Shown: positions 16,647 to 58,500 of the stretch, one piece after another | Layout: each line of letters begins with the position of its first letter | Position numbering within the stretch: position 1 is the first letter of the stretch | DNA from: Glaciozyma antarctica PI12 | Lineage: Eukaryota > Basidiomycota > Microbotryomycetes > Kriegeriales > Camptobasidiaceae | Length of the DNA stretch: 64,000 nucleotides | Assembly: GCA_002917775.1 (NCBI GenBank) | Contig: KZ627161.1 | Coordinates: 1,789,727 to 1,853,726, forward strand | Direction of reading: 5' to 3' | Made by a program: the position numbers and the translations under genes | The notes under the pieces: model-generated | What the model saw: the letters and a program-made list of their open reading frames with translations, nothing else | Told to the model about the DNA's origin: nothing | Databases searched by the model: none

Positions 16647-16718
16647 GGGTTCTTAGTGTAGCGGTTATCATCCAAGCTTTCCATGCTTGGGACAGGGGTT
16701 CGACTCTCCTAGGACTCA
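16647..16718 (+). tRNA. tRNA-Gly (anticodon UCC)
   Basis: A 72-nt cloverleaf can be folded. The acceptor stem pairs GGGTTCT (16647-16653) with AGGACTC (16711-16717), with two G-U pairs, and A16718 is the discriminator base. The D arm region is GTGTAGCGGTTATCAT. The anticodon stem CAAGC/GCTTG encloses loop TTTCCAT, so the anticodon is TCC at 16680-16682, reading glycine GGA codons. The T arm is AGGGG-TTCGACT-CTCCT. Internal polymerase III boxes are visible (A box TAGTGTAGCGG, B box GGTTCGACTCT). There is no intron. A short T run occurs only about 35 bases downstream. Confidence 0.85.
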
Positions 16719-17495
16719 CAGAACATGCGAGGTTGCTTCGGCAGCTTCGCATTCCCTTTTGATCACGTTCACTCTGATTTTTGGCGTCCCCGAACTTGAG
16801 TTCAGCTCGTCCTCGACTGGCAATCCTGAGGAAGGGAATAACAGTTTGCTACGCCCGAGCGTGACAAGCTCGTTCGCCGGCGCCAGGATCTCAGGACCAG
16901 GTGAGGCCGCTGCCGCTTCGCGAAGTCGGACACCTTCATCAAGAGATTTCTCAGATCAGCAAATTCTTACTTCCCAGGTGTGGGCCTTCCCTTGACCCGT
17001 TGCGCGACGAGTAGCTGACCTGCCGTCCAGGTGGAGGGGTCGTTTGGCGCTATCGTCGCGCGAATGAAGTTTGAGATGGGAAGGAGTTGCAGTAGCCTAG
17101 CAAGCGATCAAATTATCTCCAGTGCTTTGGTCGAGTCCGTCGTCGTCGTCTGAGAAGTTCAGCTGAGAAAGTCCTCCGAGCGTAGATCGACAAGTCCGCG
17201 GAGAAAAAAAAGCTTTGACAAAAAAGAAGCAACTTCTCCATCTCGGCCCATCTCGGTGCTCCCTCCTCCTCCTCGGACCTTGGCATGCTCGCTGTTCACC
17301 GACGTTCCTCCTCAGCAACATTTCTCTAGAACCGCTCTTCAAGGCCGCGGGGAGGAGACTCGACCGATCAAACCTCTGCTCAGCTTTCCGGGTTTAGAGA
17401 AGGACGAAGCTCGTTTGGGGGTCGGGAGGAGCGAACCTTGCTGTCGTTTGACCGGTCGCCTCTCTTCCTTCTACCAAACACTCGATACAACGAAC
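16719..17495. other. Gap between tRNA and ABCG gene
   Basis: These 777 bases form the upstream region of the ABCG transporter. A-rich runs occur at about 17200-17230. No coding frame or further RNA gene is supported. Confidence 0.45.
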
Positions 17496-24788: not shown

Positions 24789-26086
24789 TTAGACGACGAG
24801 CGCAACGATAGCTCCGAAGAACAACGTCGCTCCTCCCACCACGACGCGATCGACTCCGCTGTTCGCAGCCGTAGTGGCCGCCGCCGACGCCGACGCGCGA
24901 GTGGTGCTCGGCGAGGTCGTCGTTACGATCGCCGTGCCAGTCTCGGCAGCAGTCGTCTCAGCGGTCGTCTCAGCAGCCGTGGTGATGGTGGAGAGGGCGG
25001 TGGTGGGGTCGGCGGTGGTGCTGATGAGGGTGCCGGGGGAGACGGTTCCGGACGAGGCGGCGCCGACGAGACGGCCGGTACCCCAGGGGATTGCGGCACC
25101 GTCAGGCTGGAGGGCTTCAGTCGGGGTGGACTGTGAAGGGTGTGAGTTGGATAGAGAGAGGAGGGAGAGGGGACGAACGACTGCGCCGGCAGCGGAGGCG
25201 ATGGTGAAGCGAGTGGTCCAGGTGGGGTCGATGCCGTTGTTGGTGAATTCTACGCGAGGGTTAGTGGTAGAGATAGAGAGGGAGGTAAAAAGCCGCACGG
25301 TCTGTCGGTGCAAGAGGGTCAGCGAGAGCGAAGGACTGAATTTCGGCTGTCTGCCCCACACTCGAGTGTCCGACCCTCTGCTTGAGAGTGCAGCTCGAGA
25401 TGAATCTCCGCTTCCTCCTCGAGAACCACCCTTCCCTCCCTTCCTTGTACAGGCGCCAGTGTTAAAGGAGGGACGAACAGAAATATATGGTGCTGGTCGG
25501 CGTTACGGCGGGGCACTCCCAGGAAAGGCTTCCTGAGCCTGTGGTTCCGTCACTGAGGAGAGAGAAGGTCAGCATCTACGCTCGTACACGCGTGAGAGGA
25601 ACTCACAGCCCGGTGACAACGTTGGTGACCAAAACCTGCACGCGACAAAGGGGGCTCCGCAGTGAGCTCTCCAGTCCTTCCCGCTGCCCGCAAGGAGACC
25701 GTATCTACGCACCATTCCCAGATTAGAGCCGGTCATCAGGTCAATAGTCACGTTCGTCCAGGTCTGCGCGAGACACCAGGTCAGCTCCCCTGCTCTCGCG
25801 TCGCGCGCACGCGCCCCTTCTCGTACTCACGCCGGTAGTGTCCAAATCAAACTCGATAGGGCAGGCAGCTCCAACCTGGCGTTCAAGATTCTTGTCAGCA
25901 CCCTGGCGTAGAGAGACGAGCTCGGAAAGGACGGACATTGTACGAGTCGTTGGGGCCTATGATCGAGTTGGTCAGCGTTGCTCCGCCGCGGGAGAGAGGA
26001 GGGGACGTACCGGGACCGGTAGGAGTCACGGCACCACGGACGACGGAGAGAGAGGCGAGGAGAGCCAGGGAGAGGGTGGCGAACAT
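24789..26086 (-). CDS. GPI-anchored wall protein with KNH/Kre9-type N-terminal domain
   Basis: A secreted cell-surface protein. A signal peptide (MFATLSLALLASLSVVRG) is followed, across several introns, by an Ig-like domain of the KNH/Kre9-N type: CPIEFDLDTTGTWTNVTI, DLMTGSNLGMVLVTNVV, GSLSWECPAVTP, IYF-YQ-F, then TNNGIDPTWTTRFTIASAAG. A Ser/Thr/Ala-rich stalk follows (TTAAETTAETTAAETGTA), ending in a likely omega site (NSG) and hydrophobic tail VVVGGATLFFGAIVALVV, the pattern of a GPI-attachment signal. The Tyr-Gln step requires a 3-nt exon at 25299-25301; joining the flanking exons directly would create a TAA stop. The upstream intron there is 177 nt. The role is probably structural in the glucan wall. 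Confidence 0.82.
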
Positions 26087-40415: not shown

Positions 40416-42063
40416 TCAAAGAGCCTCCATCTCTTTGCGCTGAAGTGTCTCGCGAAGTCCTCGACGCACTTCTTTCAGGGTCAAGATCGTGTCCTGCCGG
40501 AGAGAGGTGAGCTGGCGACAGCGACGCAGTCCCGGAAAGACGCACGCGAATCTTCCTCTTCTCGTCGACTGTGGTAGCGATTCCAAAGTCAAGGTTGAGC
40601 CTGTCGAGCTCAGTGTTCTTGTCGGCGATCTCGTTCTTGATGCTGCGAAGCTCGTCCTTCTGCGCGTCGAGAGTGTGGAGTTTCTTGTTGGCTGGGGGAT
40701 CAGGAGCTTAAGCTCGGCGCTTTCCTTTGGACGTGGAAGCTGCGGGAGTGATAACGGCTTAGCGAGCTGGAGGTGGTGGTGGCAGCGGAGAGGGAGGCAC
40801 CTTGAGGAGCACGGGGCTTGGCGGGAACTTCGTCGTCGTCGTCCGAAGAAATGATGACAGTGTTCTGGGAGCACTAAGATTAGCTGCGGCGTGAGAGGGA
40901 GGGAGTGGAGGACAACGAACGCGGCGGGTTTCCCTCGTGAGGGCGCTCGTGGAAGTGCGCTTGGCCTTGGTGGGCTGGCGCTCGTGAGATCCCGATCTGC
41001 ACAACCTGATCAGTTACGGTATACAGAAAGAAGTCACCGGAGTGCTCACTGCTGAGGAATCTGCGAGGACAGCGTGTAAGCGCCACGAGAAGGCGATAAA
41101 CGGTCGAAAAGAACGCACGTTGGGCTTGACTTCGGGCTGTGACTCCCCGCCGTCCTTCCGGTCTTCGCCTCGATCGTCAGAGACGACAGGTTTCTCCTTA
41201 TCTGGAAGGCGGTAGAAGCGCTGCTTGCAGCTTGCCTCTGACCGGGGAGGATTCATGTCGACGCCAATGGCACGCCAAGCGAGGCCCTCGCTGCGCCCCT
41301 GGACCAGCTGCTGGTCGTCCGCTGGAGTAAACCTGAATGGAGAGAAAGAATTGTTTAAGCTCGACAAGCTGGCGTACGGTGGGAGCAACTCACCGTGAAG
41401 GAGAGTCTGAGGCTGGTTGGTGCTCGAACGGTGGGCCGACTTCGACTTCTGCGGTACCGGGGGCCTCTTGACGCCGGGAGGTCCCTTGTTCCAGCGAGTA
41501 CGGCAGCCGTTCACGTTGCGCGATCCCCCGATCTCCAAGCTCACCGCGTCCCAGTCGGTCCTACCGCCAGCCGCGTGGTTCTTGACAGCGCGTCGAGCAC
41601 CACGTACTCCTCACGAGTCCAACCTTCCCCTACTTTCGCTATTAACGTGGTCAGAGTTGTTTGGCGCGCAGGAGAGGAAGGAGCATACAGGCTTGCGGGG
41701 TGCAGTCCTGGAAGTCGTCCTCCGAATCCGAGGCTTTCGAGCTCGACGGCGCCGCTGCGCACTCATACGTGAGCTTCCACACCTCTACTGCCCAGGCCTC
41801 TGTGGCATAGAACCGCGCTCACTCTCGACAGGAACAGCTTTAGCGGCCGTGGTCTTCGGGTCGCCGAGCTCGACGTCTTCCTGCTTGACGCTCACTGCGG
41901 GCGGCACGGCAGTTAGGGAGTGCATCTGTAGCTCAGGCTGTACGTACGGTCGTGGTGCGACTTCTCCGTGAGAACAGGGCGTAGATGGAAAGGAGAAGGA
42001 CCATGCGGCGAAAAAGGCACAGACCCTCGCACCCGGTCCCCCCTTCGAATTTCGCATGGTCAT
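40416..42063 (-). CDS. Myb/SANT-repeat nuclear protein with coiled coil
   Basis: Two Myb/SANT repeats are visible. The first is built from GEGWTREEYVVLDA and VKNHAAGGRTDWDAVSLEIG with NVNGCRTRWNK, but these two halves are in different frames with no intron between them (41585-41594). The second is FTPADDQQLVQGRSEGLAWR, then SEASCKQRFYRLPDK. Downstream are basic sequence (HERQPTKAKRTSTSALTRE), NTVIISSDDDDEVPAKP, which looks like a SUMO-interacting motif, and a C-terminal coiled coil (DAQKDELRSIKNEIADKN, LKEVRRGLRETLQRKEMEAL). DNA binding in the nucleus is inferred. The 5' end is unsure: an exon ending TEKSHHD is supported, but the true ATG may differ from 42063. Confidence 0.62.
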
Positions 42064-55545: not shown

Positions 55546-58500
55546 AGTGCGTACACAGCTACTTGACGAGGGACAAGCTTAATTTACCTTCACCGAACGC
55601 AGTGGACTCTTATCCCGGCGAATTCACCCAGCACCACACCCCACTCCTCTTCGTCGCCGGCATCTCTCCTCCAGCTGCACCTGCTTCTCCCTCCCCCGAC
55701 GCCGCCTCAAAAGCACCTCCACCTCCTCCAGAACTTCCTGCCGATGCATTCGAGCCCCTCGTCTCCGCCCTCCGCAAGACGCTCGTGACGCGCAAGGGGT
55801 TCGCGATATACGACAACTCGCGAGGGGTCAACCACGACTTCCATGTCGTACTCGTGGACAAGGTGCGTTGTCCTAGAGGGATAGGGTGGGAGCCGTGACT
55901 GACAGCTCGTGCTCGCAGAACGTCCGCTTCCCGCCGCTGAAAGCGCGTCCCTCCTCGGCAGAGCAACCCCCAGCTGCCCTCCACTCCCCCATCTCCCCGC
56001 TCTCTCCCTCCTCGCCTCTCTACCCCGATGGAATCATGGCGCCCATCTGGATTCGGAAGCACCGCGAAATGGTCCCCTCCGTCTTCGTCCTCGTCCTCCG
56101 GCTCGGAGAGCACTCGTCCCTTTCTCCCCTCGACAGCGCGCGGAAGGTGGAGGACGAACGCGCCAAGGATGCCGAGCTCGTGAGGGAGGTGGTGGAGCGG
56201 AAACAATCTACCGTCGAACGAGGGATCAAGCTGGCTGTGGTCCTCTTGTGCTCGCGAGAGCTGCTCGACGACGCCAGCCTCGACGCACGTCTCTCCCTCA
56301 TTCGCAGGCAGTCTGGACTCGATTCGCGCGCATCGTTGTTTGTGATCTCGCCGGTTCCCCAAGCGGAGGTCACGAACTTCGTTAGCAGCTTAAAGGCGGA
56401 GTTATGGCCGCCAGCGCTGGATTATTATCGCGAGCATGGGCGGAGGGTGCGGAGGAAGCGAGCGAGGCAGGTACCGAAAGGGCGTCTGAGCGATAAGGGG
56501 TGGAACGTGCGGTATGACTACAAGATGGGGTTGTTCTCGGAGATGAGGGGAGAGATGGAGGTCGCGCTCAAGTGAGTTTCTACGCTGCGACGAACGGGGA
56601 GGGAAGCTAATTCCAGTACGAAGACACTACGAGGACTGCTACGATACGCTTACCGAGATGTTCTCCTCGACCAGTCTGCTGACGCCGCGAACGAAGCGTT
56701 GGGCCGAAGCCAAGGTCCTCGCCGATTGCCTGACCGTCAAGGTTCGTCCATCGCAGGCCTCCCTTCCTCACTCGCTGATCCTTTATCTAGGTCTGCAAAT
56801 TGTATCTCTACCTGAACGAACCCTCGCGATCCGTCGCTCAGCTCAATCGGCACGTGTCGCACTTTCGCGAGCTCAGTAACACTTGGGGCATCGGCGAGCA
56901 GACCTTTGAATTTTGGTCCTGGCTCTCGAAGCAGTACGTTCTAGCCTTCATCCTCCCTTCCTCTCACCAACCCGCTTTCCTTTTGCAGATATCGCCTCTT
57001 TGCCGACCTCGTAGCGATCGCCATCCGCGCCGGCTTTCGCCTCCCCTCCCCTCGTCCTCCTCCAACTGCAAGATCAACACCTGCTGGCATACTCCAGCCT
57101 CCGTCACCAGGATCGGCACAAGCGAACGTGCTGCAGCACCCAGGATACTACTTCTACCTCTCGGGAACGTGTGCGGTCGAGCGAAGGGAGAGGTTCAGGG
57201 CTATCGCGAAGGCGGAGGTGCGCTACTTTCCTTTGCCGGTTGATATAGGCGAGGACTGACGACTCGTGCAGAGTCTCAACGAAGCTACACCTGTTACTCC
57301 AGCTATTGCGCACGAGACGAAGATTGACCATGCGGAGATCATTATCGACGTGAGCGCTTCGTCCATTCCTTGTCGAATCCTTCTGATGCTGTTCTCGCAG
57401 CTATTCACGAAGGCTTACGAGTACTTCAAAGGTCATCGCGCGAGTCGCATGACCCTCTTCATCGCCTCTCAGATCGCGTTGGCGCACTACGAAGCTGGTA
57501 ATCACGAGATGGCTCTCAAGTACGTCCTCCGCTCCTCTTTCCTGGTGCTTACGCTGATACGCAAGTATTGCAGGTTCCACGATCGTATCGCGCGAACGTA
57601 CAGGCGCGAAAAGTGGAGAGAGATCCTCGATCCCATCCTCCAGCTGTCGTTCGATTCGGCGGCCAAGGTGAGAGACGACGAGAGTGCGCTCAAGTTGCTG
57701 TTTGAACTACTTGCTCCTGGTTCGTACTCTCTCCGCACCACTGTCCCCGTTTCTGATTTTCTTCTCCCAGATTCCCGGATTTCGCTCGAGCAGAGGGAGG
57801 CCTACGCCGCGAGTCTGCTAGAGCTTCTCAAGGTACGGCGAGCCCGTTGTCTTTGAACGGAATTCCTGCTAACGAGTCGTTCTCAGACCAAGACGCCTGC
57901 GACGCCCGAGGCAGGCACCTTAACCATCGACCTAGCTGACGCTGCTCCTCTCCGTGCGCTCCTCCTCTCCCAGCCAGCGCATACCTAACTCTTTCATTAG
58001 TCGACTGCCGAATCGTCTTCTGGAAACCGACTTCCGACATCGGTGCCCCAGTCCCCTTCCAGCTCTCTCTCACCTCGCCTTCGACAGCCCGCGCCTCCAC
58101 CCTCGTCTTCTCGAAGCTGCAAATCCAGTTCAACGATGGCCGACCTCCTGTCGTCGTATCGAACGCTGAGCTGCCGACGGAGGGAGCGGTGGTGCATCAC
58201 GCGGTTGGGGAGTTGGGAGATGGGTCGCTGGAGGTTGGGGAGGTGGCGGTACCGCTCGTGTGGAGGGACGGGTCGACGAAAGTGCTTACGGGGACGGCGG
58301 CCGCTGCGAGTGAGCTGAGCTTGACTGTGAGCTTCGTTCGGTCTTGAATCGAGTCGTAGGATCGAGGCTGATGTTATGTCCCAGGTGTCTACCGTCACGC
58401 TGACGCTTGCGGAGGGCGATTGGACCGTCAACCTCGTTCTCCGGCCCGACGATACGCCTTTGGGCAAGGGATCGGTGTGGCGCACGGAGTCAGTTGCGGA

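Follow-up and report, generated by a model that had tools for sequence, protein, structure and literature searches.

Introduction

Internal exons shorter than 30 nt, the limit for microexons given in PMC9142197 and followed here, have been described in several fungi, and four papers provide the closest comparisons for the candidate 3-nt exon, ACC, that we analyse in a gene of the basidiomycete yeast Glaciozyma antarctica PI12. The extreme case is the 1-nt exon of Fusarium CYP621A, which the abstract of the report assigns to 20 orthologues and the discussion to 24 genes, and which 18 SRA reads confirm (PMC12940212); in contrast to this exon of many orthologues and RNA reads, the ACC candidate measures 3 nt, concerns one gene and is known from sequence alone. 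The bglA genes of Sirobasidium magnum and Rhodotorula minuta have smallest exons of 5 and 6 bp, as established from mRNA and gene, and the likeness to the present locus lies in very small exons within intron-dense genes of basidiomycete yeasts; the bglA exons, however, are 2–3 nt larger than ACC, belong to beta-glycosidase genes and are flanked in some cases by GC-AG introns (PMC9142197). The P450 genes of Phanerochaete chrysosporium, in which introns of 45–55 bp are frequent, are likewise basidiomycete genes with very small exons, but their reported minimum is 6 bp (PMC1184071), whereas the microexon of Trichoderma Xlr2, similar in being a small exon essential for a domain, differs in its 20 nt and in its regulation by glucose (PMC11121469). 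In the accessible portions of two further papers, microexons are mentioned only as a mapping setting (PMC8022950; PMC3990503). Full-text literature searches returned no paper on a fungal 3-nt exon, a Rhodosporidium mini-exon or very short Cryptococcus exons, and the combination of microexon with Rhodotorula retrieved the bglA and P450 papers only.

An earlier note on this locus regarded 3 nt as near the physical limit for an exon, a view weakened by the reported 1-nt Fusarium exon (PMC12940212) and 5–6 bp exons of bglA (PMC9142197). Tiny fungal exons are thus already known, a smaller one being in print, and the ACC candidate probably extends the list without opening a new kind.

Results and discussion

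Architecture of the gene and of the junction

The genome comprises 19.98 Mb in 18 contigs, and the window, that is, the whole 64,000-nt stretch of DNA analysed, has a G+C content of 60%. Its other features include a tRNA-Gly (anticodon tcc) at 16647–16719 on the plus strand and a predicted 11-nt internal exon at 41060–41050 on the minus strand, within a gene spanning 42063–40277. The gene under study, recognized from an open spliced frame and a Kre9_KNH match, occupies 24789–26086 on the minus strand; its nine exons measure, in transcript order (26086 to 24789), 76, 20, 45, 51, 29, 74, 3, 71 and 342 nt and, with ACC included, form a frame of 236 codons without stops. Inspection by eye suggests an N-terminal signal peptide, a Thr/Ser/Ala-rich stretch and a hydrophobic C-terminus, so that the 236-aa product is probably a secreted, putatively GPI-anchored wall protein, the signal peptide and the GPI tail having been judged by eye. 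Residues 25–116 match positions 2–94 of the 94 positions of the Kre9_KNH profile (PF10342) at 28.3 bits, above the curated cut-off of 24.6, in agreement with the KNH/Kre9-type domain previously proposed.

All coordinates and bases given earlier for the junction, which lies on the minus strand, were borne out. Exon 6 (74 nt, 25479–25552) ends in ...ATA TAT TTC T, in phase 1. It is followed by intron 6 (177 nt, 25302–25478), which has the donor GTTCGT, the branch site GCTGAC and the acceptor CGACAG, by the candidate exon ACC (25299–25301) and by intron 7 (49 nt, 25250–25298), with the donor GTGCGG, the branch site ACTAAC (within CACTAAC) and the acceptor GCGTAG. Exon 8 (71 nt, 25179–25249) then begins with AA TTC ACC (Q-FTNNGIDPTWTTRFTI). 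At 3 nt, ACC lies within the size range of microexons, and both of its flanking introns possess GT, a branch site and AG. The predicted fold of intron 6, with its 5' end paired to a purine-rich stretch, is unremarkable (z = −1.54).

With ACC included, T-ACC-AA reads TAC CAA, completing a Tyr codon and starting a Gln codon, and the frame continues as IYF-YQ-FTNNG. Direct joining of exon 6 (...TTC T) to exon 8 (AA TTC) creates a TAA stop, as had been pointed out, with the frame otherwise kept, and retention of intron 6, of intron 7 or of both leads to a stop in each case. Nevertheless, there are other solutions in which no stop occurs before exon 8 ends: 27 have one intron of at least 40 nt and 584 have two introns, and the exon-8 peptide is retained in 20 and 169 of them, respectively. 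Frame logic alone is therefore insufficient to pick out ACC.

Splice signals

The strength of the signals was assessed with a self-written semi-Markov gene finder trained without supervision, and percentiles refer to 701 introns that the finder itself predicted. Training yielded a genome consensus of GTG[C/A]GT for the donor, GCTGAC for the branch site and GCAG for the acceptor, with a median intron of 56–57 nt. The branch site of intron 6, rightly called good before, is identical to this consensus, and its A lies 18 nt before the ACC exon; the donor ranks at the 27th percentile, the acceptor at the 13th and the total signal at the 14th, and 22 of the 701 introns match or exceed its 177 nt. 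For intron 7 the donor, branch site and acceptor rank at the 16th, 32nd and 45th percentiles, and with a total at the 24th the description of this intron as 'perfect' was too strong. The signals of both introns are usable and lie below the genome median; they are not strong.

With the scores of the ACC site as thresholds, a scan of 264 kb on both strands (528 kb in all) gave three sites at which an acceptor and a donor that equal or surpass these scores lie 3 nt apart, the ACC site among them, and two of the three (the ACC site and one at 55919) also had a good acceptor 40–90 nt downstream. The site at 55919 was rejected as a tiny exon, since it is the ordinary start of an exon in a predicted gene. 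The two sites other than ACC correspond to approximately 0.001 expected per 229-nt stretch, and 1.2 Mb of order-2 Markov sequence gave one acceptor-donor pair, with no further acceptor downstream.

Competing structures were enumerated with GT-AG introns only, of 40–300 nt, at most three in the stretch, and with sites above a score floor. An untrained first pass used the ACC exon with a different upstream exon. After training on 264 kb from which the ACC gene was left out, the finder, in a version that permitted 0-nt exons, predicted exactly the ACC structure, which ranked first of 698, ahead of the next two by 0.2–0.4 nats. With training on 200 kb wholly outside the window, the exact structure ranked sixth of 697, 2.6 nats under the best. 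ACC was nevertheless an exon in six of the seven highest-scoring structures, five of these six differing from the exact one in the exons upstream, and forbidding it cost the best structure only 1.4 nats. Within the best 40 of the 697–698 structures, those with ACC held 0.74–0.79 of the weight, a share that fell to 0.28–0.34 under a penalty of 2 nats per exon shorter than 10 nt and to 0.05–0.07 under one of 4 nats. Given these small margins and the reversal under a tiny-exon penalty, the splice signals alone leave ACC undecided.

Homology and the competing structures

It is homology, unlike the splice signals alone, that decides for the predicted ACC structure. In a scan against Kre9_KNH, the ACC protein scored 30.7 bits, whereas nine rival structures reached at most 22.3 bits and two of the nine gave no match (ranks 5, 9 and 10 of the list from the model trained outside the window were among those left out). 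When the residues at the junction were varied within one construct, the score was 30.2 bits with YQ, 25.3 with one residue and 24.9 with none, so that skipping, besides introducing the stop, would lower the match to the conserved domain. The 18 residue pairs that a 3-nt exon could encode at this place span 27.9–34.4 bits, YQ being eighth; Gln is the best of the three options for each first residue, and Tyr is fourth of six. The earlier statement that ACC restores Tyr-Gln accordingly stands in part: as judged from the profile, a length of two residues at the junction is supported as fitting the family, whereas the identity of the Tyr is not supported, the profile having no preference for Tyr over Phe or Leu.

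Searches for relatives added little. A protein search of the genome itself gave six matches, all within the ACC gene, and a search of the genome for the Kre9_KNH family found nothing, missing even the ACC gene, which means that this Pfam search is blind to genes split into short exons. Degenerate WTTRFTI motifs occurred in the genome in the ACC gene only, and YFY[QE]F did not occur. In collections with few or no fungi, the 10 viral and 93 bacterial or archaeal pattern matches included none that was related, and exact motif matches (one in a viral contig, 17 in bacterial or archaeal records) were attributed to chance. The PDB contained no relative of the KNH protein (best E 0.34). To our knowledge, YFYQF and WTTRFTI are common to basidiomycete members of the Kre9_KNH family; a full-text literature search on YFYQF and on WTTRF turned up nothing of relevance.

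The alternative that fares best dispenses with the tiny exon altogether, in that a single longer intron would start at another donor (e.g., 25516–25336 or 25506–25302) and the stretch of intron 7 would be coding. Both of these structures are in frame, and the first is only 0.4–1.5 nats under the best ab initio structure. They lose, however, the IYFYQF end of the strand, both scoring 21.8 bits against Kre9_KNH; their donors rank at percentiles 4.4 and 1.1, respectively; and the reading translates a stretch that carries a donor, a pyrimidine run, CACTAAC and TAG. We consider such a structure unlikely. Still less credence is due to a broken gene or a small assembly error near the junction, the true transcript having one 229-nt intron: direct joining is in frame save for the TAA at the joint, a stop that one base error could produce, but the 229-nt stretch contains a complete second set of signals, consensus branch site included, and the remainder of the 236-aa frame is intact. 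Least probable is the replacement of ACC by a 48-nt exon (25299–25346, minus strand), which keeps the frame, inserts a net 15 residues in a loop (SEIQSFALADPLAPTDQ for YQ) and still yields 24.6 bits against Kre9_KNH, but whose acceptor at 25347 has a poor branch site (1.4th percentile; intron total at the 0.4th of 701 introns), whose structure lies 9.2 nats under that with ACC and whose protein scores 3.7 bits less than the 28.3 of the ACC protein, the constructs differing in length (171 vs 236 aa).

A second candidate in an SDO1-like gene

When 200 kb of the same contig was analysed with the corrected finder, three internal exons of at most 9 nt were predicted among 472, two with weak signals and only one, of 4 nt, with strong ones. 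This candidate exon, ACAA (C16:1193565–1193568, plus strand), belongs to an SDO1-like gene and is flanked by introns of 118 and 64 nt. Against SBDS_N, the predicted protein with the exon scores 66.6 bits; skipping the exon causes a frameshift and abolishes the match, whereas dropping just its two residues in frame leaves 63.7 bits. As the latter loss is only 2.9 bits, support for the exon comes mainly from the frame. The best PDB match is 9phc_HS, 'SDO1-like protein C21C3.19', presumably, from its name, a fission yeast protein, in which DKT is aligned with the place where the 4-nt exon contributes to the codons for D and K. As a prediction made apart from the ACC gene, this candidate independently supports the occurrence of very short exons in the genome.

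A model for the candidate ACC exon

We regard ACC as a 3-nt exon as the most likely structure of the gene, with a probability of roughly 0.77. The case rests on four elements, namely the sequence, frame logic, the advantage in homology over the rivals tested and the similar 4-nt candidate elsewhere in the genome. The proposal of a 3-nt exon has thus become the best-supported structure once homology is added, but in-frame rivals, unlisted earlier, do exist. Recognition across the intron, in a genome whose introns are short, should favour the accommodation of tiny exons and not hinder it. ACC would be a constitutive exon; the 177-nt and 49-nt introns, each recognized across the intron, would be excised separately in two reactions, and T-ACC-AA in the product would encode Tyr-Gln within the Ig-like Kre9/KNH domain of a protein with a putative role in the wall. 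Direct joining of the outer exons would introduce the stop and presumably give a non-productive transcript. Because this stop arises exactly at the joint when the first donor is paired with the last acceptor, skipping of ACC could act as a switch, and a more speculative extension of the model is that inclusion is regulated, turning the wall protein on or off, and that the lineage uses exons of 3–5 nt regularly; we hold this to be improbable.

If confirmed, the constitutive ACC exon would add a 3-nt coding exon for a basidiomycete yeast. Taken with the 4-nt candidate described above, it suggests that exons will be overlooked or misplaced when such genomes are annotated automatically, and that short introns permit exons too small for exon-spanning recognition.
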